This document shows positions 142-28,284 of a stretch of DNA of 45,179 nt, one piece after another (within the stretch, counting starts at the first letter, position 1; the number at the start of each line of letters is the position of its first letter). Source of the DNA: Promethearchaeota archaeon. GTDB lineage: Archaea; Asgardarchaeota; Lokiarchaeia; Sigynarchaeales; SOKP01. A model generated the notes under the pieces. That model did no database searches. It was not told the DNA's origin and worked only from the letters and a program-made list of their open reading frames with translations. A program made the translations under genes and the position numbers. The DNA is taken from positions 1-45,179 of the forward strand of contig JAGXNR010000016.1 of the NCBI GenBank assembly GCA_019894875.1. The letters are read 5' to 3'.

Positions 142-2073
142 TCAGAGTTTTTGACCTATAGCATATCCCGCGTGAATTGCTTCTAACATTCTTTTTGCTT
201 GTGTACAATCTCCTATCGTATGTATGTTTGGGATCTTCTCTTTTAACATATTAAGTAATTGATTCTGAGGTTCCATACCCGTAGCGATCACAACTGAATC
301 TGCTTTAACTATTTCAGAGTTCCCATCTCTTTCGATTTCCACTCCTTCATCTATGATTCTAATGACTTTTGAAGAAGTATATTGTTTGATACCCCATCTG
401 GCTATTCTCATTGTAACTGACCATCTTGTTGAGGGACCAATATCTCGAGCAATTTTTGGTAACATCTCAACAATTGAAACATCCTTTCCTCGCGATCTTA
501 AGAACTCAGAAGTTTCGCAACCAATTAATCCACCCCCAATAATTGTTACATTGTCACCGGTAGTTGAAATTCCTTTTAACACATCAAGGGCCATGACTAC
601 ATTATTGGCTTTAATACCGGGTATATCGGGTGTTATTTGTTTTGCACCTGTGGCTAAGATAACCTCATCAGCACTTTCCTTTAAAATAGAGTCTACCGTG
701 GCTTCTTTATTAAGCTGAATATTAACTTTTAATTTCTTCATTTGATTTGTTAAATAATCCGTTAAGCAATTAGTCTCCTCTTTATGAGGTGCTAGGGAAG
801 CTGTAATTAAATTTCCTCCAAGATGATCATTTTTCTCCCAAATAGTTACTTTATGACCTCTTAATGTTGCTACTCTTGCAGCTTCCATCCCAGCGGGACC
901 GCCACCAATTATGAGAAGCTTTTTCGACCTTTCTGCTTTCTCTAATGGATTTCCCTCTTGACCCAATCCCGCGTTTACAGAACATACTACGGGACCTCTA
1001 GTAGTCATGGCATCAAAGCAGCGACTACATGCTATACACATATTAATATCCTCAAAATCCCCTTTCATGGCTTTTTTAGGGAAATGGGGATCAGCTAAAA
1101 ATGGTCGACCAAAATGTACTAAGTCTGCTCTTCCGTCTCTTATAATATCACTTGCTAGTCGAGGATCGTTGATTCTTCCGCCAGTCATAACTGGAACATT
1201 TATTATCTTTTTCATTGCTTCTGCTAGATATACAAATGCACCTCTAGGGACTGACATAGGTAACATAGGTTTTGGTGATTCATGCCATCCTGCCCATGTA
1301 TGTATTATAGAAGCTCCGGCTTGCTCTGCTCGTTTTGCCATAATTTGAGCATCTTCAAGAACAGTACCCCCATCCATGTATTCATCTGCGCTAATTTTAT
1401 AAATTACAGGGAATTGGTTTCCAAGCTTTTTTCTGATATTTCTAATAATTTCAACAATAAAAGTCGCCCGTTCTGATGGAGTTTTACCCCCAAATCTATC
1501 AGTACGCTTATTAGTAAGAGGTGATCCAAATTGACTAATTAAATATCCAGTTGATCCCATCAATAAAACGCCTTTAAATCCTGCTTCAGCACTTCTTCTC
1601 GCAGAATCGGCAAATCTTTCGACTAAGCCTTCAACCTCATCTGTTGTTAGTTCTCTTGGCATTTCACCTCTCCCTTGAAAACCTTTAATTGGAGATGGCG
1701 CTACAGGTTGCATACCAGTAAGAGCTGAATGAGCATATCTACCTCCATGTGATAATTCAATCATCGGTACTGAACCTCCTTTTACTATTGCAGTAGCTAA
1801 CTTTTCCAAACCCGGAACGTATTTATCTTCATCAGTCGCAATCATACCTTTACCGGCTGTACTTCCTATGGGATAATCAATGATACCCATCTCTACACAA
1901 ATAAAACCCGCACCGCCTTTGGCTCTTTCAACATAGTAATCTATTAATTTATCAGTGACAAATCCATCATAGCCAAATCTGGTATTCATCGGTGCCATCA
2001 TTATCCTATTACTTATCTCCACATCCCCAATCGTAATCGGCTGGAATAAATATTTTACTTCTTCTACAACCAT
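142..2073 (-). CDS. NADH:flavin oxidoreductase / 2,4-dienoyl-CoA reductase-like (643 aa)
   Basis: This is an old-yellow-enzyme-type flavoprotein of the FadH/BaiCD class, expected to reduce an activated double bond such as a dienoyl-CoA or enoate with NAD(P)H in the cytoplasm. The N-terminal half is an FMN TIM barrel starting at about residue 8. A 4Fe-4S motif CIACSRC follows near residue 350, with a further Cys in VVCSVN. The C-terminal half has two dinucleotide folds, LLIIGGGPAG and VTIIGGGLIG, and ends with the IHTIGDC FAD signature. The length fits the family (about 640-670). The ATG lies behind an AAAAAGGTTA leader also seen before other genes here. It is divergent from the molybdoenzyme at 2233. 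The family is secure; the substrate, whether fatty acyl, bile-acid-like or another enoate, is unknown. Confidence 0.9.
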   Translation of the reverse strand: MVVEEVKYLFQPITIGDVEISNRIMMAPMNTRFGYDGFVTDKLIDYYVERAKGGAGFICVEMGIIDYPIGSTAGKGMIATDEDKYVPGLEKLATAIVKGGSVPMIELSHGGRYAHSALTGMQPVAPSPIKGFQGRGEMPRELTTDEVEGLVERFADSARRSAEAGFKGVLLMGSTGYLISQFGSPLTNKRTDRFGGKTPSERATFIVEIIRNIRKKLGNQFPVIYKISADEYMDGGTVLEDAQIMAKRAEQAGASIIHTWAGWHESPKPMLPMSVPRGAFVYLAEAMKKIINVPVMTGGRINDPRLASDIIRDGRADLVHFGRPFLADPHFPKKAMKGDFEDINMCIACSRCFDAMTTRGPVVCSVNAGLGQEGNPLEKAERSKKLLIIGGGPAGMEAARVATLRGHKVTIWEKNDHLGGNLITASLAPHKEETNCLTDYLTNQMKKLKVNIQLNKEATVDSILKESADEVILATGAKQITPDIPGIKANNVVMALDVLKGISTTGDNVTIIGGGLIGCETSEFLRSRGKDVSIVEMLPKIARDIGPSTRWSVTMRIARWGIKQYTSSKVIRIIDEGVEIERDGNSEIVKADSVVIATGMEPQNQLLNMLKEKIPNIHTIGDCTQAKRMLEAIHAGYAIGQKL

Positions 2074-2232: not shown

Positions 2233-4494
2233 ATGGCAAAAAGCGAAGAAATTAAACTTATAAGAACTGCCTGTCCTGCTCATTGTGGAATAGATTGTTG
2301 TGGGATATTAGCTCATGTAAAAGGAGATCATGTTATCAAATTAGAACCGGCTGATTTTCCTGATGAAAAAGATCGAAGAATATGTTTGCGAGGTTTAGCT
2401 AGCTTAGATATTACATATCACCCAGATCGTATTAAATTTCCGATGAAGCGAGTAAGTAACCGAGGTGAAGCAAAGTTTGAAAGAATATCATGGGATGAGG
2501 CCTATAATATAATTGTTACAAAATTTAAAGAAATTTCTGAAAAGTATGGATGGAAATCGATTGGATGGGTTTTAGGTGGACCTGGTGCAGGTACCACTAA
2601 ATTTGGGGCTTATCTAAGGTTGGCAAGCCTTACACAAAGCACTCGAGTAAGTGCCTGGGGATATGGAGATGCAGGGCTACCTTGTGGAAGTAGAGTAATT
2701 CTAGGGCACCAATTTCCTTATATGCATTTACATGGGGAATTTTGGCAAAGAAAATATCCTGAACTGTTAATGGTATGGGCTACAAATCCCGCTGAGGCCA
2801 TGCCTTTACAAAATATGCGAAAACTCATGGATGCAAAAGAGACTGGAACTCAAGTTATAGTTGTTGACCCTCGTTTTACAGTTACAGCATCGAAAGCGGA
2901 TGAATATATTGGGTTATATCCGGGAACTGATAGTGCCTTAGCACTGGGTATTATGAATATAATATTCCAAAATGATTTACATGATAAAGAATTCATCTTA
3001 GAACATACCAATGGACCTTATTTAGTAAGAACTGATACTGGTAAAATGCTCCGAGGAAAAGATATCGATGCTAAAAAACCCGATTCGTATGTGATATGGC
3101 ATAATTCTTCTAATTCTCATCAACTTGTATCTCAATCTAATGTAAAAGATTCCAATCTTACTGGGACTTACATCACTGATGGAATCGAATGCAAACCAGT
3201 ACTTCAGTTGTTAATAGAATTAACTACTAAATACACTCCCGAAAAAACTGCAGAGATTACAGGTGTCGATCAAGACCTTATTATTAAGTTAGCTAAAAGA
3301 ATTGCGAATTCAAAAAAAGTTGTCTTTTTAACTCACATGGGTTTTACTCGAACTTATCATGGAGATATTTCGTTAAGGGGAGTAATTTCTGTAGCTGCTA
3401 TTACTGGTAACATAACCACGACAGTAAGCTCTGGATATATGCCTGCTGCTTTGAATTGGAATCCATTCCTTAAAGCGATCCCTGATAAACCAAGCTATCA
3501 TAGAATAGGAATTCTCAATCTCTACGATGCTGTCATTTCTGGAAACCCTTACCCAATAAAAGCTCTCTGGTTTGCTTTTATTAATTTCTTAAACCAATGC
3601 GCTAACTCCAATAAAATTATTGAACAATTTTACCCTACCTTAGAATTTATTGTGCAAACTGAGTTATTTATGACTCCCTCTGCTCGTTACGCTGACTTAT
3701 TACTTCCTGTCTGTAGTTTTTTAGAATTTTCAGATTTTATGGCTCAACCCTATCCGAATGTACAACTCCAACAAAAAGTAATTGAACCGCTATATGAATC
3801 TAAATCAGATGTAAATATTGTTGCTGAACTTGCTAAACGCCTTGGATTTGGAGATTACTTTAAGGGTGGAGAAGAGGGATTAATTGATCTTATCATGCCT
3901 CGTACCCTCCAAGGGATTTCACGTGAAACTTTAAAAACTCAAGCAGTGCAATTACCGCCACTACCAGAAGGAGCAAGTTTTCCTCTTAGCTTTGGCACGC
4001 CTTCGAGAAAAATTGAATTATACGCGGAACAATTATATGAGGATGGAGAAGCACTTCCCGTCTATTTGCCACCAATTGAAGCTCCAATTACTCCTGGTGA
4101 AAAAAAGTATCCTTTAAATCTTATTAATGGTCATAGTCGATTTCGTACACATTCGATGTTTGCAAATGTGCAATCCTTATTAGATTTAAATCCTGAACCA
4201 TTAGTGGATATTCACCCCATTGATGCAGGGAAACGAAATATAAAAAGTGATGACATTGTTACTGTTTATAACGACAGAGCTAAAACAACACTTAAAGCTA
4301 GAGTAACTGAAGGTGTCAAACCTGGAGTAGTTGACATCACAGAAGGTTGGTGGATTGAGCAGTTTAGAGAGGGAAGCTTAAACCATCTAACTCATGATAT
4401 TATTAATCCAGTGCAAAACAAGGTCTATGAGCCTAATATGCATATGAATGATGTTGCTGTTGAAATAAAAAAGAGTGAGGGTGTTAAAAAATGA
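2233..4494 (+). CDS. DMSO-reductase-family molybdopterin oxidoreductase, catalytic subunit (753 aa)
   Basis: This is a catalytic subunit binding Mo- or W-bis(pyranopterin). The N-terminal 4Fe-4S site is Cys14, Cys18, Cys22 and Cys51 (CPAHCGIDC then ICLRG). The RISWDEA motif at 84-90 and the C-terminal cofactor-binding domain (from about 620) are present. Where the metal ligand of this family sits, the sequence reads WGYGDAG, with Asp146 at the position that is Ser150 in the paralogue at 21433. Asp is the ligand in the NarG/ethylbenzene-dehydrogenase branch, so Asp146 is a candidate but not proven. There is no Tat signal, so the protein should be cytoplasmic. The stop overlaps the start of the ferredoxin subunit by 4 bases (ATGA), indicating translational coupling. 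The overall domain order recalls acetylene hydratase, transhydroxylase and polysulfide reductase relatives. The substrate is unknown. Confidence 0.92.
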   Translation: MAKSEEIKLIRTACPAHCGIDCCGILAHVKGDHVIKLEPADFPDEKDRRICLRGLASLDITYHPDRIKFPMKRVSNRGEAKFERISWDEAYNIIVTKFKEISEKYGWKSIGWVLGGPGAGTTKFGAYLRLASLTQSTRVSAWGYGDAGLPCGSRVILGHQFPYMHLHGEFWQRKYPELLMVWATNPAEAMPLQNMRKLMDAKETGTQVIVVDPRFTVTASKADEYIGLYPGTDSALALGIMNIIFQNDLHDKEFILEHTNGPYLVRTDTGKMLRGKDIDAKKPDSYVIWHNSSNSHQLVSQSNVKDSNLTGTYITDGIECKPVLQLLIELTTKYTPEKTAEITGVDQDLIIKLAKRIANSKKVVFLTHMGFTRTYHGDISLRGVISVAAITGNITTTVSSGYMPAALNWNPFLKAIPDKPSYHRIGILNLYDAVISGNPYPIKALWFAFINFLNQCANSNKIIEQFYPTLEFIVQTELFMTPSARYADLLLPVCSFLEFSDFMAQPYPNVQLQQKVIEPLYESKSDVNIVAELAKRLGFGDYFKGGEEGLIDLIMPRTLQGISRETLKTQAVQLPPLPEGASFPLSFGTPSRKIELYAEQLYEDGEALPVYLPPIEAPITPGEKKYPLNLINGHSRFRTHSMFANVQSLLDLNPEPLVDIHPIDAGKRNIKSDDIVTVYNDRAKTTLKARVTEGVKPGVVDITEGWWIEQFREGSLNHLTHDIINPVQNKVYEPNMHMNDVAVEIKKSEGVKK

Positions 4495-5075
4495 GCAATG
4501 GGAAAAAGTTTGGGATGGTCATTGATCAAGAAAGATGCATCGGTTGTGAAGCGTGCAGTATCGCATGTAAGATTGAAAACAATTCTACGGATTATTGGAT
4601 AAAAGTTGAAACTCAAGGTGGTGCTGTGAAGGATACTCCCGGAGGGAATTATCCAAATTTGACAATGGATTTTCTCCCTAAATTATGTAATCATTGTGAA
4701 AATCCACCTTGTGTTGATTCTTGCCCTGAAGATGCTCTCCAAAAAAGAGATGATGGGATTGTTATTTTAGACAAAGAATTATGTACCGGTTGCCAATCCT
4801 GTTTAACAGCATGCCCCTATGATATTATCGTATTCGATGATAGCAATAATCTCGTAGAAAAATGCAATTTTTGCGTACATAGGGTGGATCAGGGGCTTGA
4901 CCCTTTCTGTGTAATTTGTTGTGAAGGTCAAGCGATACACTTTGGAGATTTAAACGACCCTACTAGTGTTGTTTCAAAATTAAAGTCTGAAAAAAACTCT
5001 TTTCGACTTAAACCTGAAGAAGAAACAAGCCCAAAGGTTTATTATTTTCCCCCTCGACCTAAAAGAAGGTTATAA
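4491..5075 (+). CDS. four-cluster 4Fe-4S ferredoxin subunit of the molybdoenzyme (194 aa)
   Basis: This is an electron-transfer subunit of the DmsB/PsrB/HycB type. Sixteen cysteines form four clusters: CIGCEACSIAC near residue 16, CNHCENPPCVDSC near 62, CTGCQSCLTAC near 97, and CNFC with CVICC toward the end. It overlaps the catalytic gene by ATGA and so is surely its partner. It has no membrane segment and no anchor gene follows, so electrons probably pass to a soluble carrier instead of the quinone pool. The gene is followed by an oligo-T run. Confidence 0.92.
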   Translation: MSNGKKFGMVIDQERCIGCEACSIACKIENNSTDYWIKVETQGGAVKDTPGGNYPNLTMDFLPKLCNHCENPPCVDSCPEDALQKRDDGIVILDKELCTGCQSCLTACPYDIIVFDDSNNLVEKCNFCVHRVDQGLDPFCVICCEGQAIHFGDLNDPTSVVSKLKSEKNSFRLKPEEETSPKVYYFPPRPKRRL

Positions 5076-6531: not shown

Positions 6532-6571
6532 TTTTTTTACCTCTTTTAATTTTTTTACCTCATAATATATT

Positions 6572-7906
6572 TTAGATATTTAAATTCTCAATTACTACAG
6601 CAGTTCCTTGACCGCCACCACATGATATCGCTGCAAGACCATATTTTGCTTTCTTCTCTTTAAGAATTCTGGCTATTGTTGATGTAATTCTAAGACCTGA
6701 CGCGGATGCAGGATTCCCTATTGCAATTGCTCCTCCATGAATATTCATTTTGTTTTCCCAATCGATCCCCAACTTTTTAGCAGCATTCAGTGCTACAACA
6801 CCAAAACTTTCATTGATTTCCCAAAAATCAATATCATCTACTTTTAAATTTGCATGCTCTAAAGCCATTTGAGCTGCGGGTACTACACCTCGTCCACGTA
6901 CAGTAGGATCAACTCCCGCAAAACCAATTGATATAACCTTCGACATGGGATTTAATTTATATTCCTCAACTGCATCTTTAGACGCTAACAAACAAAGTGA
7001 GGCCCCATCACTTAAAGGAGCACTATTTCCGATGGTTATAATACCTTCTTCTGTTCCAAATTTTGCAACATATGCATCTTTGGAGTAAACAGGGTTTTTA
7101 TAACCACCTGCCCATCCAGGAGTGCTAATAGACGACATTTTAGCAATATCTTCGAAAGAAATTGCTTTTTTTATGGATTGATCTTCTGCAATCTCCATTT
7201 CGTTCTCAGGATCCCCTGCTTTATGGCCTTTAATAGGCACTATTTCTTCTTTAAAAAAACCACTTTCCTGAGCTTTTGCTGCTAAATTGTGACTGCGCGC
7301 ACTAAATTTATCCATCTCATCCTTTGTAATATGATCGGCTTCTTGCTCTGCAAGTTTCTGAGCTGACTGGAATAATAAACGACTAGTATTCCAATCATAT
7401 AAATCATCGTTATACCATTCACTTTCGGGATTAAGCATAATTCTATCTGGAGGCCATCCAAATACTTTTACTTTTCCTCCGTAATCATGTAAAGGTACTC
7501 GAGTAAATTGATCAAAAGCTAAAGTTACCACTACATCGGAGTAACCCATTGAAATATTTCCGAATCCAACATGTAAAGTTGCCATACCGGAACTATCTTG
7601 TTTGTCAAATACAGTTGCAGGCACATGGAAGGGAAAATTTGCCATCCAAATATTAATCCTTCCCCCAAATGTCCCATGTTCATGCTGCAATAAAGCACTA
7701 CCAGTTAAAACCTCACTAACATTCTCACGTTTGAGTGTACTGCCCGTATTTGGTATTCGATTGTCAAACATATCTATTAAGACATGAGCTGCAAGTTCTG
7801 TCCCCCACTTCTTACTAAAAACATCCTTATCAGGTTCCAGAGGATTTGATTGAGAAAAAGCTGTCCTTACATGATCTACTATATATACTTCTCTTGCTTC
7901 TTTCAT
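6572..7906 (-). CDS. thiolase-fold protein with all three catalytic residues replaced (444 aa)
   Basis: The protein aligns along its full length with the thiolases at 5227 and 15169, sharing the DVF segment, the RGRG...VPAA region, WEINE and the KEKKAKYGLA tail. At the nucleophile it reads FDKQDSSGM, so Asp104 stands where Cys is required. At the His box it reads AIGNPASASG, so Asn398 replaces His. At the last Cys box it reads SCGGGQG, so Ser428 sits at the catalytic position, with a Cys one residue later. NEAF is NESF. The codons are GAT, AAT and TCA/TCT-type, and the frame is intact throughout, so this is not simple decay. Normal thiolysis is not expected. By analogy with PqsB and type II PKS chain-length factors, it may be a non-catalytic partner of the thiolase downstream; that is inference. 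Confidence 0.9.
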   Translation of the reverse strand: MKEAREVYIVDHVRTAFSQSNPLEPDKDVFSKKWGTELAAHVLIDMFDNRIPNTGSTLKRENVSEVLTGSALLQHEHGTFGGRINIWMANFPFHVPATVFDKQDSSGMATLHVGFGNISMGYSDVVVTLAFDQFTRVPLHDYGGKVKVFGWPPDRIMLNPESEWYNDDLYDWNTSRLLFQSAQKLAEQEADHITKDEMDKFSARSHNLAAKAQESGFFKEEIVPIKGHKAGDPENEMEIAEDQSIKKAISFEDIAKMSSISTPGWAGGYKNPVYSKDAYVAKFGTEEGIITIGNSAPLSDGASLCLLASKDAVEEYKLNPMSKVISIGFAGVDPTVRGRGVVPAAQMALEHANLKVDDIDFWEINESFGVVALNAAKKLGIDWENKMNIHGGAIAIGNPASASGLRITSTIARILKEKKAKYGLAAISCGGGQGTAVVIENLNI

Positions 7907-8049: not shown

Positions 8050-8832
8050 TTATTTTCCCTTAAAAACTGGTTTACGTTTTTCAACAAAAGCAGTTGCTGC
8101 TTCTCTATGATCCTCAGAAGCATAACATTTGGCATTGAATTCCGTCTCAACTTTTAACATTTCAGCAAAAACTTTATCATAACTTCTGTTTACTGCCTCC
8201 TTAGAAAGTGCTAATGCGAGGGGTGCTTGTTCTGCTAGATGATTTGCAAATTCCATTGTTTTAGGTATTAATTCTTCATGGGGAAATACGGCATTAACTA
8301 ATCCTATCTTAAATGCTTCTTCAGCAAATATTCGTTTACCGCTAAAGATAAGCTCTTTTGCTTTATGAATGCCTATAAATTTAGGGAGCAAAAAACTTCC
8401 ATTCATATCAGGAATTAATCCCATGCGTATAAAGAATTCACCAAAACTGGCTTTTTCTGATGCAAAAATCATGTCACAGCTTAATGTTAAATTGGTTCCA
8501 AATCCTACTGCTACACCATTTACAGCAGCAATAATCGGTTTATATAATCTGAAAAAATCATAGGGGTGAATTATCATATTATTTCCTGCAGCCTCTTCCC
8601 TAAACTTTCCACTGGCAAACTCCTGAACATCTGCACCCGCACAAAATGCTTTTCCCATTCCTGTTATAACTATCACTCTTACACCTGAATCCTCCTTCGC
8701 TTCTTTCAATGAATTTTTCAAATCAGCATTCATCTGAACATTGATAGCGTTCATTCTCTTAGGACGATTAAGAGTTATAACCGCAACTTTATCCTTTTTT
8801 TCATACAAAATAGTTTCATATTCTGGACTCAT
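8050..8832 (-). CDS. enoyl-CoA hydratase/isomerase family protein, PaaG-like (260 aa)
   Basis: This crotonase-fold protein acts on acyl-CoA. The oxyanion-hole segments AFCAGADV and AVNGVAVGFG are present. In the hydratase Glu-144 region it reads FGEFFIRMGLIPDMNGS, so the usual first Glu is missing and an Asp follows IP, as in PaaG-type isomerases. The second Glu (AKELIFSG) is kept. An isomerase or atypical hydratase is more likely than a classic FadB-type hydratase. I place the start at the ATG at 8832, which has GGTGTC about ten bases upstream. An in-frame TTG at 8850 would add six residues but overlaps that site. Confidence 0.85.
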   Translation of the reverse strand: MSPEYETILYEKKDKVAVITLNRPKRMNAINVQMNADLKNSLKEAKEDSGVRVIVITGMGKAFCAGADVQEFASGKFREEAAGNNMIIHPYDFFRLYKPIIAAVNGVAVGFGTNLTLSCDMIFASEKASFGEFFIRMGLIPDMNGSFLLPKFIGIHKAKELIFSGKRIFAEEAFKIGLVNAVFPHEELIPKTMEFANHLAEQAPLALALSKEAVNRSYDKVFAEMLKVETEFNAKCYASEDHREAATAFVEKRKPVFKGK

Positions 8833-9062
8833 TCTCAATGACACCTTCAATTATAACCTAATAAAAATCTGAAATTTGTTGTTTTTATTTAGTATTAATT
8901 AAATTTGATCATCGCACTATTTAATTCTTTTACACTTTCCTTAAAAATAAAGAAATAGCACTATACTAACCAAGATAAAAAAAAACCTTTATAATCATAC
9001 CAATTTTAATAAAATATTGAATAAATTATGACTAAATAACAAATTTTATTTGATGATGAAAA

Positions 9063-10328: not shown

Positions 10329-10733
10329 ATGGATGAATTGAGAATAAAACGCTATCACGATAAAATAAATCATATTGTGGAATATATAAAAGACTTAACA
10401 AAAGATCCAAAAAATGAACTTGAAAAGCGTGGGATATTCTATTCATTACAAACTTCTATCGAGGCGATTATAGATTTAATCGCAATGCTTACAAAAGACT
10501 TAGGGATTCAAGTCAAAGATGATAATACAAACATCTCTGAAATTGTTAAAAAAAGGAACCTAAAATTTGAATTAGGAGAGAAATTGAAAAAAGCTAATGG
10601 TATGCGAAATATAATCGTCCACCGTTACAATGATTTTGAAGAAAAGATTATTTTAGATTCCGTTGACGAAATTAAAGATCTTTTAACAAAATGGATAGAG
10701 GTTGTGGAGGAAATCCTGAATGAGCTCTCTTAA
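10329..10733 (+). CDS. hepT: HepT-like HEPN toxin (134 aa)
   Basis: This is a HEPN-domain (DUF86) protein. The R-x4-H-x-Y signature is exact in RNIIVHRY near residue 97. In characterised pairs, HepT is an RNase toxin whose Tyr in this motif is AMP-modified by MntA. The protein is all-helical in appearance and of normal length. The stop lies 14 bases inside the start of mntA, so the pair is translationally coupled. It is the only clear toxin-antitoxin element in a window otherwise full of metabolic genes. Confidence 0.85.
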   Translation: MDELRIKRYHDKINHIVEYIKDLTKDPKNELEKRGIFYSLQTSIEAIIDLIAMLTKDLGIQVKDDNTNISEIVKKRNLKFELGEKLKKANGMRNIIVHRYNDFEEKIILDSVDEIKDLLTKWIEVVEEILNELS

Positions 10734-11118
10734 GATCGAAGATTTAGCGGAAATATTGAACCCATTAAAAGGAAAATATGAAGTAGTTCTTTATGGATCG
10801 CAAGTGGAAGGAGGGATCCGTCCAGATTCTGATATTGATATTGCAGTGATAACACGGGGAACCGATATTGAAAAAAATATTAAAATACAAAAAGAGCTTC
10901 TAGGAATATTTTCTCTTAAATTTGATATCCGCGTATTTGAATTATTCCCAATTTACATCCAAATTTCTATAATAGAGAATTATCAAGTTGTCTTTGGTGA
11001 TATCTTAGAAATTTCAGAATACTTTTACTCTTTTCGGAAAAAATGGGATGATTGTAAACACCGGATATTATCAAACCAGTTCTCAAGCCATCTTGAAAGG
11101 TTGAATTTAATTAAGTAG
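10720..11118 (+). CDS. mntA: MntA-like nucleotidyltransferase antitoxin (132 aa)
   Basis: This is a minimal nucleotidyltransferase. The GS-x10-D-x-D motif is exact (GSQVEGGIRPDSDID, residues 26-40), and a later Asp in KFDIRV supplies the third metal ligand. In known systems MntA neutralises HepT by transferring AMP to its motif Tyr. A good GGAGG site at 10706-10710 precedes the ATG inside hepT. The intact signatures suggest both partners are functional. Confidence 0.87.
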   Translation: MSSLKIEDLAEILNPLKGKYEVVLYGSQVEGGIRPDSDIDIAVITRGTDIEKNIKIQKELLGIFSLKFDIRVFELFPIYIQISIIENYQVVFGDILEISEYFYSFRKKWDDCKHRILSNQFSSHLERLNLIK

Positions 11119-11309: not shown

Positions 11310-12149
11310 TTATTCTACAATAGCGTATGCGTTACCTAAAACTTTTGCTCTTTCAGTTTTTACTTGGATTATATAGCGCCCGTTATCCTTCCAGCCTTCT
11401 GTTGTTAAAGTTTCTCCTGGATAAACTTCGCTTGTAAATCTCGCATTGAATTCTTTAAAACGTGAAATATCCCCATCACAAAGACCATAAACTATAGACC
11501 TAGTGGCATAACCATATGTACATAATCCATGAAGGATTGGTCTGTCAAATCTTCCACTTCTCTTAGCAAATACAGGATCTAAATGTAACGGGTTGTAATC
11601 ACCGCTTAGTCTATATATAGCTGCTTGATTAATATTGGTTTTATATGATAAACTAAAATCTGGTTCTTTTCCCTCAGGAGGATCTAATGGTTCAGCTTTA
11701 GGACCACGATCCCCACCCCAACCACCTTCACCAATATAAAAATGAACGTATTTGGCGTCGAATATGTGCTCTCCATCAGGGGTTCTACCCGACATTCTAG
11801 TATGAATAACAGCAGCTTTTCCTTTATCAAACATATTTTCACATACTCCTTTTACTCTGATTTCCCCTTCGGACGGAAAGGGCTTTACTAGTTTTATCAT
11901 TTGTTCCCCATGAATAAATCGAGCTCCATCAACAGGTTTGTCACTAAATCTTGGGAATCCGGCTCCTGCGAGAATACAGGCATAACTAGGAAAAACCTGT
12001 ACTCCTCCAGGTGTTCGCTCATAAACAAACTTAAGTTCATCTGGTTGAGCACCAATCCCGAGATTATAAAGTATTACGTCTTTCCACGTATATTTAATGG
12101 TTCTTTCTTCAGTTTCCTTGCCAATAACATCTAAATTTAAACTTGTCAT
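11310..12149 (-). CDS. MaoC-type (R)-enoyl-CoA hydratase, MFE-2 hydratase-2-like (279 aa)
   Basis: This is a double hot-dog protein expected to hydrate trans-2-enoyl-CoA to the (R)-3-hydroxyacyl-CoA. The hydratase-2 signature is complete: LSGDYNPLHLDP at 181-192, with catalytic Asp184 and His189, followed by RPILHGLCTYG. The N-terminal half contains the substrate-side hot-dog (NLGIGA, FIHGEQ). The length matches the stand-alone hydratase 2 domain of peroxisomal MFE-2. The matching (R)-specific dehydrogenase is encoded two genes upstream at 13272, so the module appears split over two genes. Confidence 0.9.
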   Translation of the reverse strand: MTSLNLDVIGKETEERTIKYTWKDVILYNLGIGAQPDELKFVYERTPGGVQVFPSYACILAGAGFPRFSDKPVDGARFIHGEQMIKLVKPFPSEGEIRVKGVCENMFDKGKAAVIHTRMSGRTPDGEHIFDAKYVHFYIGEGGWGGDRGPKAEPLDPPEGKEPDFSLSYKTNINQAAIYRLSGDYNPLHLDPVFAKRSGRFDRPILHGLCTYGYATRSIVYGLCDGDISRFKEFNARFTSEVYPGETLTTEGWKDNGRYIIQVKTERAKVLGNAYAIVE

Positions 12150-13271: not shown

Positions 13272-14213
13272 TTAAGATTTCATTAACTCGTCGCCACCAG
13301 CAGCACCTTCCCTTTTTGAAGGTAAATCTTTCATTAATTCTGGAAATCGCTCAGCCAACAGTGAAGGAGTAAATGGTTGCCAATTATTTGATATTTTCTT
13401 TACTGCTCTCCAACTTCTATAAACCCAGACTTTATCAGCGATGGCTCTAAAAACTTCTCCATTAATATCTTTAGCTGCATCAGAAGCAAGGTATGCTACT
13501 AAAGGAGCGAAATGTGCAGGATCAAAGATATCAAAACCATCTGCTGTCTTAGCTTTCATATAATCTCCCATTCTTGGAGTTAAATCCGTTGTCATACGCG
13601 TTCTAGCACTTGGTACAACACAATTTACTGTTGCGTATTTCGCAACTTCCCGAGCAATTATCATTGAAAAAGATGCTATACCTGATTTCGCAGCACCATA
13701 ATTTGATTGACCAACATTACCATATAGACCAGAATCAGAAGCAGTATTAATAATTCTACCAAAGTTTCCTAAAGATTCATCAGCTTTTCCTCTTTCCCTA
13801 AAATACGCAGCTGCATGCCGAGTTAAGTTGAAAGTACCCTTTAAATGAACTGCAATAACAAGATCGAATTCCTGTTCTGTCATATTGAAAATCATCCGGT
13901 CTCGTAGAATCCCTGCGTTATTTACAATAATATCTATCTTTCCAAATTCAGCAATTGCTTGGTCGATCATACCTTTTGTCTTGTTAAAATCAACAACAGA
14001 ATCATAGTTTGCTATAGCTTTAACTCCAAGCTTTTTGACTTCTTCTACAACAGTATCAGCGATTTTGGCATCTTCATCCAAATGACTAGCGCCACCACCT
14101 ATATCATTAATTACGAGGTTACAACCTTCTTTTGCCATAACTAGAGCTTCTTCGCGACCTACACCACGACCTGCTCCAGTAATTAAAGCAACTTTGCCTT
14201 CTAACATTCCCAT
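13272..14213 (-). CDS. SDR, MFE-2-type (R)-3-hydroxyacyl-CoA dehydrogenase (313 aa)
   Basis: This short-chain dehydrogenase oxidises 3-hydroxyacyl-CoA with NAD. The cofactor motif TGAGRGVG is at 12-19, NNAG at 98-101, and the catalytic triad Ser159, Tyr172 and Lys176 lies in the NTASDSGLYG and NYGAAK segments. The long first segment (NDIGGGASHLDEDA) and the GLYGN.GQ.NY.AAK stretch are typical of the dehydrogenase part of peroxisomal multifunctional enzyme 2. The ATG has a GTGATC site four bases upstream. With the hydratase at 11310 it would carry a 2-enoyl-CoA to the 3-ketoacyl-CoA through the (R) isomer, feeding the thiolases. Confidence 0.9.
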   Translation of the reverse strand: MGMLEGKVALITGAGRGVGREEALVMAKEGCNLVINDIGGGASHLDEDAKIADTVVEEVKKLGVKAIANYDSVVDFNKTKGMIDQAIAEFGKIDIIVNNAGILRDRMIFNMTEQEFDLVIAVHLKGTFNLTRHAAAYFRERGKADESLGNFGRIINTASDSGLYGNVGQSNYGAAKSGIASFSMIIAREVAKYATVNCVVPSARTRMTTDLTPRMGDYMKAKTADGFDIFDPAHFAPLVAYLASDAAKDINGEVFRAIADKVWVYRSWRAVKKISNNWQPFTPSLLAERFPELMKDLPSKREGAAGGDELMKS

Positions 14214-15168: not shown

Positions 15169-16446
15169 TTATGCATCAAGGTTTTCAATTACTGTTGCTA
15201 CTCCTTGACCGCCTCCTACACAGGCGTTCGCAACACCATACTTTGCTTTTTTATCCTTCAAGATTCTTGCTAAAGTTCCGGTAAGACGTACCATTGTTGC
15301 TGCTAATGGATGACCAATAGCAGTAGATCCTCCCATTATATTAACCTTCTCCGTTGGAATACCAAGTTTATCCATACAATTTAAAGCTACGATACAGAAC
15401 GCTTCGTTAATCTCCCAATAATCAATGTCATCAGGAGTTAAGCCAGCATATTCTAGAGCCTTCTTAGAAGCAGGAACTGGTCCTCGACCCATTGTTGAAG
15501 GATGAACCCCTGCCCAACCGATTGAGACAATTCTTGCCATTGGTTCAATACCTCTTCCTTTGGCTTCTTCGGCTGTCATTAAGCAAGCGGCAGTAGCTCC
15601 TGCATTTAAAGGAGAGGATGTACCTACGGTTATAACACCCTCCTCTGTCCCTTCTCTTTTTACATAACCATCTTTGCCCCCATTCTTTTCTAAATAAAAG
15701 GGTCTAGATAATCTAGGTAATTTTGCATGACCTTCCATACTGGATTTTCGTACATTCATATCCTTATCTACGATCAGAGGAGTATTAACGTCTCCTGCTA
15801 CATGACCTTCAATCGGAATGATCTCACCTTTAAACCACCCAGACTCTTGAGAGGCAAGAGCTAAGTTATGACTTCGTACACCAAGTTCATCCATGCTTTC
15901 TTTAGTAAAAATTGGTACTTCTTCCTCATACAGCTTTTGAGCTGTTTGTAGCATGTTGAAAGAGGTTCGCATTTCATATTCAGGATGATAAAACTTACTA
16001 TCCTTATCCAACATCTTCATATTAGGCTCAGTTCCCCGTCCTCTCACGCGAGTCATGTGTTCGAAGCCAGTTGATAATACGGCTTTACTATTACCTGTCA
16101 TTAGCTCCATAATTCCAATGTGCATACCGGTTCCTGCTGACCCACATTGTCTATCTAAAGAGAAGGATGGAACGGTTACTGGAAATCCCGCTAAAAAGAG
16201 GGGAATCCTTCCTCCATATGACCAATTCTCTAACACACCTGCAGCAACGCCTACTGATACTTCATTTATATCTCCTTTTTGTATGCCCTTATCTGCTAAT
16301 TTCTCATCAAAGAATTTCATTAGCAACTCAGCGAGCAACTCATCTCCTCTGATTTCACCAAAGACGTCTCTCTCCGGTTGCGTACCCCTTGAGCGAGAAA
16401 ATGCTGTACGAGCATAGTCAATCAGCCAAACTTCTTTTAAGTCCAC
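15169..16446 (-). CDS. thiolase / acetyl-CoA acetyltransferase (425 aa)
   Basis: This is an active-looking thiolase, with nucleophile Cys101 (LDRQCGSAGTGM), WEINEAF, His379 (AIGHPLAAT) and Cys409 (CVGGGQG). It is closely related to the two thiolases at 5227 and 6572, sharing for example the SRSRG...RDVFG start, and probably arose from the same duplications. It starts at GTG, behind AAAAAGGTTA. It is the first gene of a minus-strand run of five beta-oxidation-type genes. Confidence 0.92.
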   Translation of the reverse strand: MDLKEVWLIDYARTAFSRSRGTQPERDVFGEIRGDELLAELLMKFFDEKLADKGIQKGDINEVSVGVAAGVLENWSYGGRIPLFLAGFPVTVPSFSLDRQCGSAGTGMHIGIMELMTGNSKAVLSTGFEHMTRVRGRGTEPNMKMLDKDSKFYHPEYEMRTSFNMLQTAQKLYEEEVPIFTKESMDELGVRSHNLALASQESGWFKGEIIPIEGHVAGDVNTPLIVDKDMNVRKSSMEGHAKLPRLSRPFYLEKNGGKDGYVKREGTEEGVITVGTSSPLNAGATAACLMTAEEAKGRGIEPMARIVSIGWAGVHPSTMGRGPVPASKKALEYAGLTPDDIDYWEINEAFCIVALNCMDKLGIPTEKVNIMGGSTAIGHPLAATMVRLTGTLARILKDKKAKYGVANACVGGGQGVATVIENLDA

Positions 16447-27351: not shown

Positions 27352-28284
27352 TTATCCCCCAATTTGAGCCTTTACACCACAAGATTCAACAATATCTTTA
27401 AGCCTTAGCATTTGGTCGTCACTGGGTGGTTCAACATCTGTAAGTTTATACTCCATTCCAATACGGCTGTATGTCTGAGTTCCAAATTTATGGTAAGGTA
27501 AAAGATCTATTCTTTGAAGATTTTCACCTAAACTGGAAGCAAATCTTGCTGTAGCCGCTATATTTTCTTCAGAATCATTACAACCCTGTATCGTGGGAAT
27601 GCGTATTATCAAAGGCTTTATCGCAGAAATTTTTTTAGCGTTTTCTAAAATTAGTTCATTAGAAACACCAGTTAATTCTTTATGGACAACTGGATCCATG
27701 TGTTTAATATCCATATACACAAGGTCTACATATTTAAGGAGTTCTTCCATTTTGTCCCATTTTACATATCCACATGTTTCTATTGCAGTATGTATGTAAG
27801 TCTGTTTACATCTTTTAAGGAATGCTGTAACAAAATCAAGTTGCATAGTGGGCTCACCACCACCAACAGTAACACCACCATTTGATCGCCTATAAAATGG
27901 ACTATCCTTATTAACATCTTGGAAAAGTTCCTCAACTGTTACATATTCACCTATACGTGTTAATCCCTGATTAAGGCAGATTTCAATACATTCATCGCAA
28001 CCTGTACAGAGTTCTCTTTTTATTTGTATTCCCTCGTTTGCGGAAATGGTAATCCCTTCAATAGGACATACTTCAACACAACGACCGCATAATTTGCAAT
28101 TAACCTCATTGTACAAAATCTCGGGTTTTGATTTCTGGGTTTGAGGAGAAGAACACCACAGGCACTTTAAGGGGCATCCCTTCATGTAAATCAGAGTTCG
28201 AATTCCGGGACCATCATGAATGGCGAACCTTTCTAAACCGTAAATAAAACCTTTACGTTTAGGTTCATCTATTGTTGAGACCAT
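27352..28284 (-). CDS. glycyl-radical enzyme activating protein, radical SAM (310 aa)
   Basis: This PflA-family activase installs a glycyl radical on a partner enzyme using S-adenosylmethionine. The radical SAM cysteines are Cys37, Cys41 and Cys44 (CPLKCLWC). An inserted ferredoxin domain has CKLCGRCVEVC (Cys63-73) and CTGCDECIEIC (Cys93-103), the two-cluster layout of activases for non-PFL enzymes such as fumarate-adding, hydroxyphenylacetate or diol/choline types. GGGEPTMQ is the SAM-binding Gly-rich motif. The ATG has a GAGG site 11 bases upstream. No glycyl-radical enzyme is encoded in this window, so its partner must lie elsewhere. Confidence 0.93.
   Translation of the reverse strand: MVSTIDEPKRKGFIYGLERFAIHDGPGIRTLIYMKGCPLKCLWCSSPQTQKSKPEILYNEVNCKLCGRCVEVCPIEGITISANEGIQIKRELCTGCDECIEICLNQGLTRIGEYVTVEELFQDVNKDSPFYRRSNGGVTVGGGEPTMQLDFVTAFLKRCKQTYIHTAIETCGYVKWDKMEELLKYVDLVYMDIKHMDPVVHKELTGVSNELILENAKKISAIKPLIIRIPTIQGCNDSEENIAATARFASSLGENLQRIDLLPYHKFGTQTYSRIGMEYKLTDVEPPSDDQMLRLKDIVESCGVKAQIGG

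Follow-up and report, generated by a model that had tools for sequence, protein, structure and literature searches.

In type II polyketide synthases, the ketosynthase stands beside a chain-length factor, a duplicated condensing enzyme in which a non-catalytic subunit accompanies the catalytic one; this ACP-dependent ketosynthase family is biosynthetic, unlike the thiolase pair described here. PqsB and PqsC of Pseudomonas aeruginosa are described as a FabH-like heterodimer that mimics the homodimer of its family, PqsB lacking all three catalytic residues (PMC4807248). Two thiolase-superfamily subunits also occur together in the PhlA/PhlC/PhlB complex and in archaeal thiolase/HMGCS/DUF35 complexes, and PhlA is reported to lack key catalytic residues (PMC6392133). 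In the heteromeric MaoC hydratases ChsH1-ChsH2, HadAB, and HadBC, a non-catalytic paralogue serves steroid or long-chain substrates, as outlined in PMC11321319. Thiolase chemistry is absent from some relatives: according to PMC3406046, MsTLP1 has the thiolase fold, none of the five thiolase fingerprints and no thiolase activity, and the steroid aldolases Sal and Ltp2 are likewise presented as thiolase relatives without thiolase chemistry (PMC12329534). Pairing of a catalytic with a non-catalytic subunit is known from other thiolase-fold enzymes and from steroid hydratases, whereas our searches of a PMC collection showed no such pair among degradative CoA thiolases. No paper on a thiolase pseudoenzyme, on an inactive or noncatalytic thiolase subunit or on a heteromeric, heterodimeric, or heterotetrameric thiolase turned up in that collection, outside which most subscription journals lie.

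The window analysed here, a stretch of 45,179 nucleotides of contig JAGXNR010000016.1 from a Promethearchaeota archaeon (Lokiarchaeia), contains three recognised thiolase genes, all on the minus strand. One of these (6572..7906, running from 7906 to 6572, ATG to stop) encodes a protein of 444 amino acids, P0001, in which all five fingerprints are altered. Instead of CxS, VMG, NEAF, GHP, and CxG, the list given in PMC3406046, it carries DSS, VRG, NESF, GNP, and SCG, which is not the pattern of a catalytic thiolase. Asp104 (codon 7595..7597) takes the place of the nucleophilic Cys, Asn398 (codon 6713..6715) that of the His in GHP and Ser428 (codon 6623..6625) that of the second Cys; Cys429 follows directly, one position off the second-Cys site. 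The correspondence of the three sites was obtained by alignment with the two other thiolases of the window and by structure alignment with solved thiolase chains, including that of C. acetobutylicum, and it bears out the triad replacement claimed in the first-pass annotation. The annotation had given no strand and had understated the extent of the loss, as changes also affect the VMG motif (Arg337 in the place of Met, codon 6896..6898), NEAF, Arg19/Arg21, and several further positions that are otherwise conserved.

The thiolase fold, which the same annotation had taken to be retained, is recognised in sequence and in structure. Both Pfam domains are found well above their cut-offs (Thiolase_N, 91.7 against 26.4 bits; Thiolase_C, 118.6 against 27 bits), the AlphaFold2 model of the monomer has the thiolase fold over its whole length with a mean pLDDT of 95.0, and the best Foldseek match is 1wdk_C, which comes from the beta-oxidation complex of P. 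fragi and is its 3-ketoacyl-CoA thiolase chain, the best 50 PDB matches all being thiolases or thiolase chains by title. The loop domain of thiolases binds CoA; that of P0001 (residues 132-290) keeps 17 of 25 conserved positions. The protein does not belong to FabH/KAS III, the closest models and structures being CoA thiolases, nor does it have the extra C-terminal beta-barrel of MsTLP1, since Thiolase_C extends to residue 440 of 444. MsTLP1 further differs, as described in PMC3406046, in being monomeric, in having YSCF at the NEAF site and in sharing 15% identity with the Z. ramigera thiolase.

Downstream of P0001, in the same orientation and after an intergenic gap of exactly 40 bases (6532..6571), lies the gene of P0002 (5227..6531, minus strand; 434 amino acids), the complete thiolase that had been noted at this place. 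P0002 has Cys100, His388, and Cys418 and all five fingerprints (CGS, VMG, NEAF, GHP, and CCG), is 46% identical to P0001 and is predicted by AlphaFold2 as a monomer with a mean pLDDT of 95.2. An AGAGGT sequence, read by eye, is present at 6539-6544 (minus strand), just upstream of its ATG; the two genes may be co-translated. The third thiolase of the cluster (15169..16446, minus strand) is intact, with all three catalytic residues. As in PqsBC, two thiolase-superfamily subunits are involved, the apparently non-catalytic one being encoded beside the intact one in all six loci in which the pair was found. Unlike the FabH-like, condensing PqsBC, in which PqsC is stated to have lost the conserved Asn (PMC4807248), the window pair is of the CoA thiolase subfamily and P0002 is canonical. 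The parallels with PqsBC and with the ketosynthase/chain-length factor that had been drawn beforehand would hold for a similar way of working, whereas the pair is a member of neither family. PhlA and PhlC are remote relatives, each homodimeric and joined by a DUF35 protein in the description of PMC6392133, whereas P0001 and P0002 are close sisters and Pfam scans of 39 window proteins revealed no DUF35 domain (ORFs below 120 amino acids and overlapping antisense ORFs set aside). With ChsH1-ChsH2, HadAB, and HadBC (PMC11321319), the principle is common; fold and reaction step differ and no relationship exists. We regard it as quite probable that P0001 and P0002 together make up one heteromeric thiolase of beta-oxidation, each as one half, and that they would be physically associated in it.

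The linkage of the two genes is constant. In the window and in five related loci (L001-L005), the degenerate gene is followed by its partner on one strand, with gaps of 40, 42, 40, 40, 41, and 46 bases. Among 227 genomes of the phylum (that of the Lokiarchaeal genome G003), at most seven candidates being scored per genome, five had a complete P0001 orthologue and the same five had a P0002 orthologue of 81-87% identity, each adjoining the complete degenerate copy; these are the genomes of L001-L005, so that the genome count and the locus count are not independent. In a sixth genome (L059), the degenerate copy is cut by the contig end, Asp104 being present. Two further matches to P0002 in the 227 genomes, at 49-50%, are other thiolases by identity. 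Five named Lokiarchaeal contigs have the P0001 gene at 77-82% identity, by search patterns that exclude the three sites. When plasmids were searched, 1529 records had a match, none of which reached 60% identity, the five listed being at 31-32%.

For more distant relatives, linkage was judged from contig sizes, which are an indirect sign of it, one size per 90% cluster among the matches listed. Eight of the 36 relatives are on contigs equal in size to that of a listed partner, and 28 are without a match; P0184 and all three Trp types belong to these 28. P0037 and P0046 are both from contigs of 35433 bases and P0185 and P0050 both from contigs of 9335 bases; from these equal sizes, one Ala type and one Ser type appear to be still paired with intact partners. 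LCGC14_1293860 (P0027) and LCGC14_1293850 (P0041) have neighbouring locus tags and both lie on a contig of 5885 bases. Over 13 matched pairs (six adjacent, seven by equal contig size), the distances within the two families were correlated with r 0.91, or 0.78 when the P0037 pair was omitted, and none of 5000 permutations reached either value. The mirrored distances show co-inheritance rather than contact and would be expected from vertical inheritance alone.

P0001 and its relatives, at least 36 among the matches listed (120 per protein search, about 8000 best word-sharing candidates being scored in each), form one clade, and in all 37 full or near-full rows the Cys, the His, and the Cys are missing from the three sites. 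The protein search gave orthologues of 56-90% identity, and a profile of deep and early-branching members added two; where named, the source organisms are Promethearchaeota, Lokiarchaeota, or Thorarchaeota, all Asgard archaea. Sequencing error or chance as the origin of the altered sites is ruled out by the 36 relatives. The nucleophile site is occupied by Asp (31 rows), Trp (3), Ser (2), or Ala (1). At the His site stands Asn (34), Leu (2), or Glu (1), and at the second-Cys site Ser (32), Pro (2), Ala (2), or Thr (1). The combinations of the three residues form a series that includes Ala/Glu/Thr, Ser/Leu/Ser, Trp/Asn/Ser, and Asp/Asn/Ser. VMG is kept in 7 and NEAF in 1 of the 37 rows; the NEAF site reads NESF, NEAF, NESS, NETS, DESF, DEVF, or DEGF, and its first residue, position 365, is Asn in 31 rows and Asp in 6. 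Asp104, Asn398, and Asn365 do not vary in any of the 29 rows that make up the core of the clade (for these residue counts, 33 of the 37 rows of the degenerate type were used and 11 of the 25 from partners). The orthologues were checked for random substitutions or broken frames, which had been named as evidence against the proposed pairing, and none were seen; the frames are open and the genes adjacent in all six loci. Of the positions conserved in at least 90% of 30 outgroup thiolases, 21 are retained in less than half of the degenerate clade, three of them (116, 132, and 133) being lost in the partner as well.

Two sequences were left out of all trees, namely P0031, which has an aberrant C-terminus and Asp at the first site, and P0038, a fragment of 267 amino acids. 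P0088, from a contig of 2108 bases, has Cys at the first site and Asn and Ser at the other two. Its first 280 residues are closest to other thiolases (54-57%, best five) and its last 123 to the degenerate clade (78-82%, best five), so that it is probably a chimeric assembly of the two; it was an ungrouped row in the 106-row tree and was omitted from later trees and counts. All three catalytic residues are present in 29 of the 30 outgroup thiolases. The exception is P0149 (on a contig of 34565 bases), a thiolase of Asgard type that falls into neither clade; Gly replaces its second Cys, and the nucleophilic Cys and the His are kept.

The partner clade keeps the fingerprints: all five are present in 23 of 25 rows, the exceptions being P0049 (FMG) and P0067, which has a broken C-terminus. 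At P0001 positions 132-133, other thiolases have Glu (28 of 28) and His (27 of 28), whereas 11 of 11 partners have Asn-Asn and none of 24 (P0067 being absent from this count) retains the Glu or the His. The degenerate clade has Asp (34) or Glu (3) followed by Gln (29) or His (8). The Asn-Asn of the partners and the predominant Asp-Gln of the degenerate copies would fit mutual adaptation, short of proving it.

In another reading, P0001 would be an enzyme of changed chemistry, a homomer that uses Asp104 and Asn398 to act as an acyl-CoA lyase, hydrolase, hydratase, or aldolase, and a new chemistry based on Asp had been offered as the alternative in the first-pass annotation. The invariance of Asp104, Asn398, and Asn365 in the core clade agrees with it; for Asp104 and Asn398 it exceeds what a pure scaffold needs, so that a retained chemical or binding role fits too. 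A precedent exists in Sal, in which the thiolase fold is reported to support retro-aldol cleavage with Tyr302 and Cys304 (PMC12329534). Set against this, Asp104 is replaced by Trp, Ser, or Ala in sister lineages, two of which seem to be still paired, Asn365 is Asp in six rows, and the 21 outgroup-conserved positions are mostly lost, albeit three of them also in the partner. The variety of residues at the nucleophile site argues that the site no longer does chemistry and speaks for a non-catalytic subunit rather than for a reaction based on Asp, which is thereby weakened and which we hold to be improbable. An aldolase of the Sal/Ltp2 type was rejected: these enzymes use Tyr/Cys or Tyr/Tyr catalysis with a DUF35 partner (PMC12329534), whereas P0001 has NESF and neither YDCY nor YDHF, nor any other YDxY/F motif, and none of the 39 scanned window proteins has a DUF35 domain.

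Degenerate and partner sequences separate into two clades, each with a support of 100, in trees of 106, 92, and 53 rows (the two smaller trees being built without the motif columns), and these clades are sisters. In the 53-row tree (20 degenerate, 16 partner, and 17 outgroup rows), this sisterhood has a bootstrap of 100 and an SH-aLRT of 97. The two genes therefore stem from a duplication of an Asgard thiolase, followed by loss of the machinery in one copy. The deepest fork inside the degenerate clade has a support of only 51 in the 92-row tree and is not settled in the 53-row tree. P0046 and P0050 branch first among the partners, and P0037 and P0185 stand together in one of the deepest degenerate branches. 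The partner stem (0.45) is not special when compared with two outgroup stems of the same tree (0.45 and 0.53).

The genes around the pair point to anaerobic beta-oxidation of some acyl-CoA. Directly upstream lies an enoyl-CoA hydratase/isomerase-family gene (8050..8850, minus strand), present in four of the five related loci, L005 being the exception. Judged by eye, the pair of catalytic Glu found in classical hydratases seems not to be conserved in this crotonase-family protein, which may be an isomerase. On the other side, the pair is adjoined by a molybdopterin oxidoreductase gene (2233..4494, plus strand), the end of which is overlapped by a gene for a 4Fe-4S protein (4491..5075, plus strand). 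The order of hydratase, pair, 4Fe-4S, and molybdopterin genes is retained in L001-L004. In L005, the pair is accompanied by the third thiolase and by MaoC genes, with no hydratase or molybdopterin gene next to it. The window further contains an NADH:flavin oxidoreductase of the old-yellow-enzyme type (142..2073, minus strand), with BaiCD as the nearest NCBIfam model, below cut-off; mycofactocin-type OYE models are near as well, also below their cut-offs. An MFE-2-type MaoC hydratase with the D-x-NP-x-H motif (11310..12149, minus strand) and SDR dehydrogenases, one of them at 13272..14213 (minus strand), belong to the same beta-oxidation-like set. Farther off are two acyl-CoA synthetases, for both of which PRK08279 is the nearest model (one scores above its cut-off, the other just below), and a glycyl-radical-enzyme activase (27352..28284, minus strand; TIGR02494, above cut-off); the Pfam scans of 39 window proteins showed no glycyl radical enzyme.

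Some further features of these clusters were seen. In L002-L005, another MaoC gene lies beside the cluster; it shares about 61-63% identity with the single one of the window and has the dyad motif. A second degenerate pair, of MaoC proteins, was considered and rejected, as all seven MaoC frames checked in L002-L005, one of them (L003) cut by the locus start, have D-x-NP-x-H. Inside the beta-oxidation cluster of the window, a HepT-like ribonuclease and a nucleotidyltransferase (10329-11118, plus strand) form a HEPN/MNT toxin-antitoxin-like pair, and L003 and L004 have similar genes at the corresponding position. In L005, a leucine-rich-repeat protein with a TIR domain (2815-4713, plus strand) is encoded next to the Lokiarchaeal thiolase cluster.

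P0001 could also serve the same pathway as a non-catalytic protein that binds acyl-CoA, regulates, or acts as a scaffold and that forms no mixed thiolase dimer, for instance by holding the neighbouring hydratase or by docking as homodimers on homodimers of the partner, like PhlA and PhlC. The conserved positions kept in the CoA-binding loop domain agree with this. Adjacent paralogues need not share a dimer, because PhlA and PhlC of PpATase are each homodimeric within one larger complex in the description of PMC6392133. However, the one-to-one adjacency is conserved with one thiolase and not with the hydratase, which is off the pair in L005, and the common origin of P0001 and P0002 favours a shared dimer interface; such a role therefore seems unlikely to us. 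That P0001 is a decaying duplicate without function, as the loss of all catalytic residues might suggest, can be dismissed almost with certainty, and a pseudogene is ruled out, since the frames are open in all six loci, dN/dS among the six orthologues (Nei-Gojobori, own script) is 0.11-0.20 for the degenerate gene vs 0.075-0.14 for the partner, and the clade of 37 rows has invariant replacement residues in its core.

Joint action of P0001 and P0002 in one heteromeric thiolase, a pairing of catalytic with non-catalytic subunit that had been suggested from the first, remains the best explanation of the conservation, the adjacency and the open frames, which support it in part. The conserved fold and the linkage argue that the P0001 protein is needed. 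We lean towards a true CoA thiolase that is an obligate heteromer with a pseudoenzyme subunit, both subunits having specialised after one Asgard duplication, and that acts in beta-oxidation of a bulky acyl-CoA. After the duplication, the P0002 type would have kept the full machinery and the P0001 type would have lost it but retained the fold. A thiolase subunit houses its own catalytic residues, and two subunits are joined about a two-fold axis. P0001 and P0002 would most likely form a heterodimer, or a dimer of such dimers, in this standard arrangement. The intact P0002 would carry out acyl transfer to Cys100 and thiolysis, and the degenerate P0001 would complete the dimer, its loop domain shaping the neighbouring pocket and aiding the binding of a large or unusual acyl-CoA; a bulky substrate is suggested by analogy with the heteromeric steroid enzymes. 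Helices are well capped by Asp, Ser, and Asn, and the helix predicted by AlphaFold2 in P0001 begins at residue 103; Asp104 probably caps this helix at the former nucleophile, which may explain the Asp of the main clade. The Trp of one lineage could fill the pocket.

In conclusion, the series of site states makes the conversion of an enzyme subunit into a helper directly testable. Where sources give a name, proteins of both kinds are called acetyl-CoA C-acyltransferase or acetyltransferase, or hypothetical. For the degenerate copy such an enzyme name is probably wrong, and it would mislead metabolic reconstructions of Asgard genomes.
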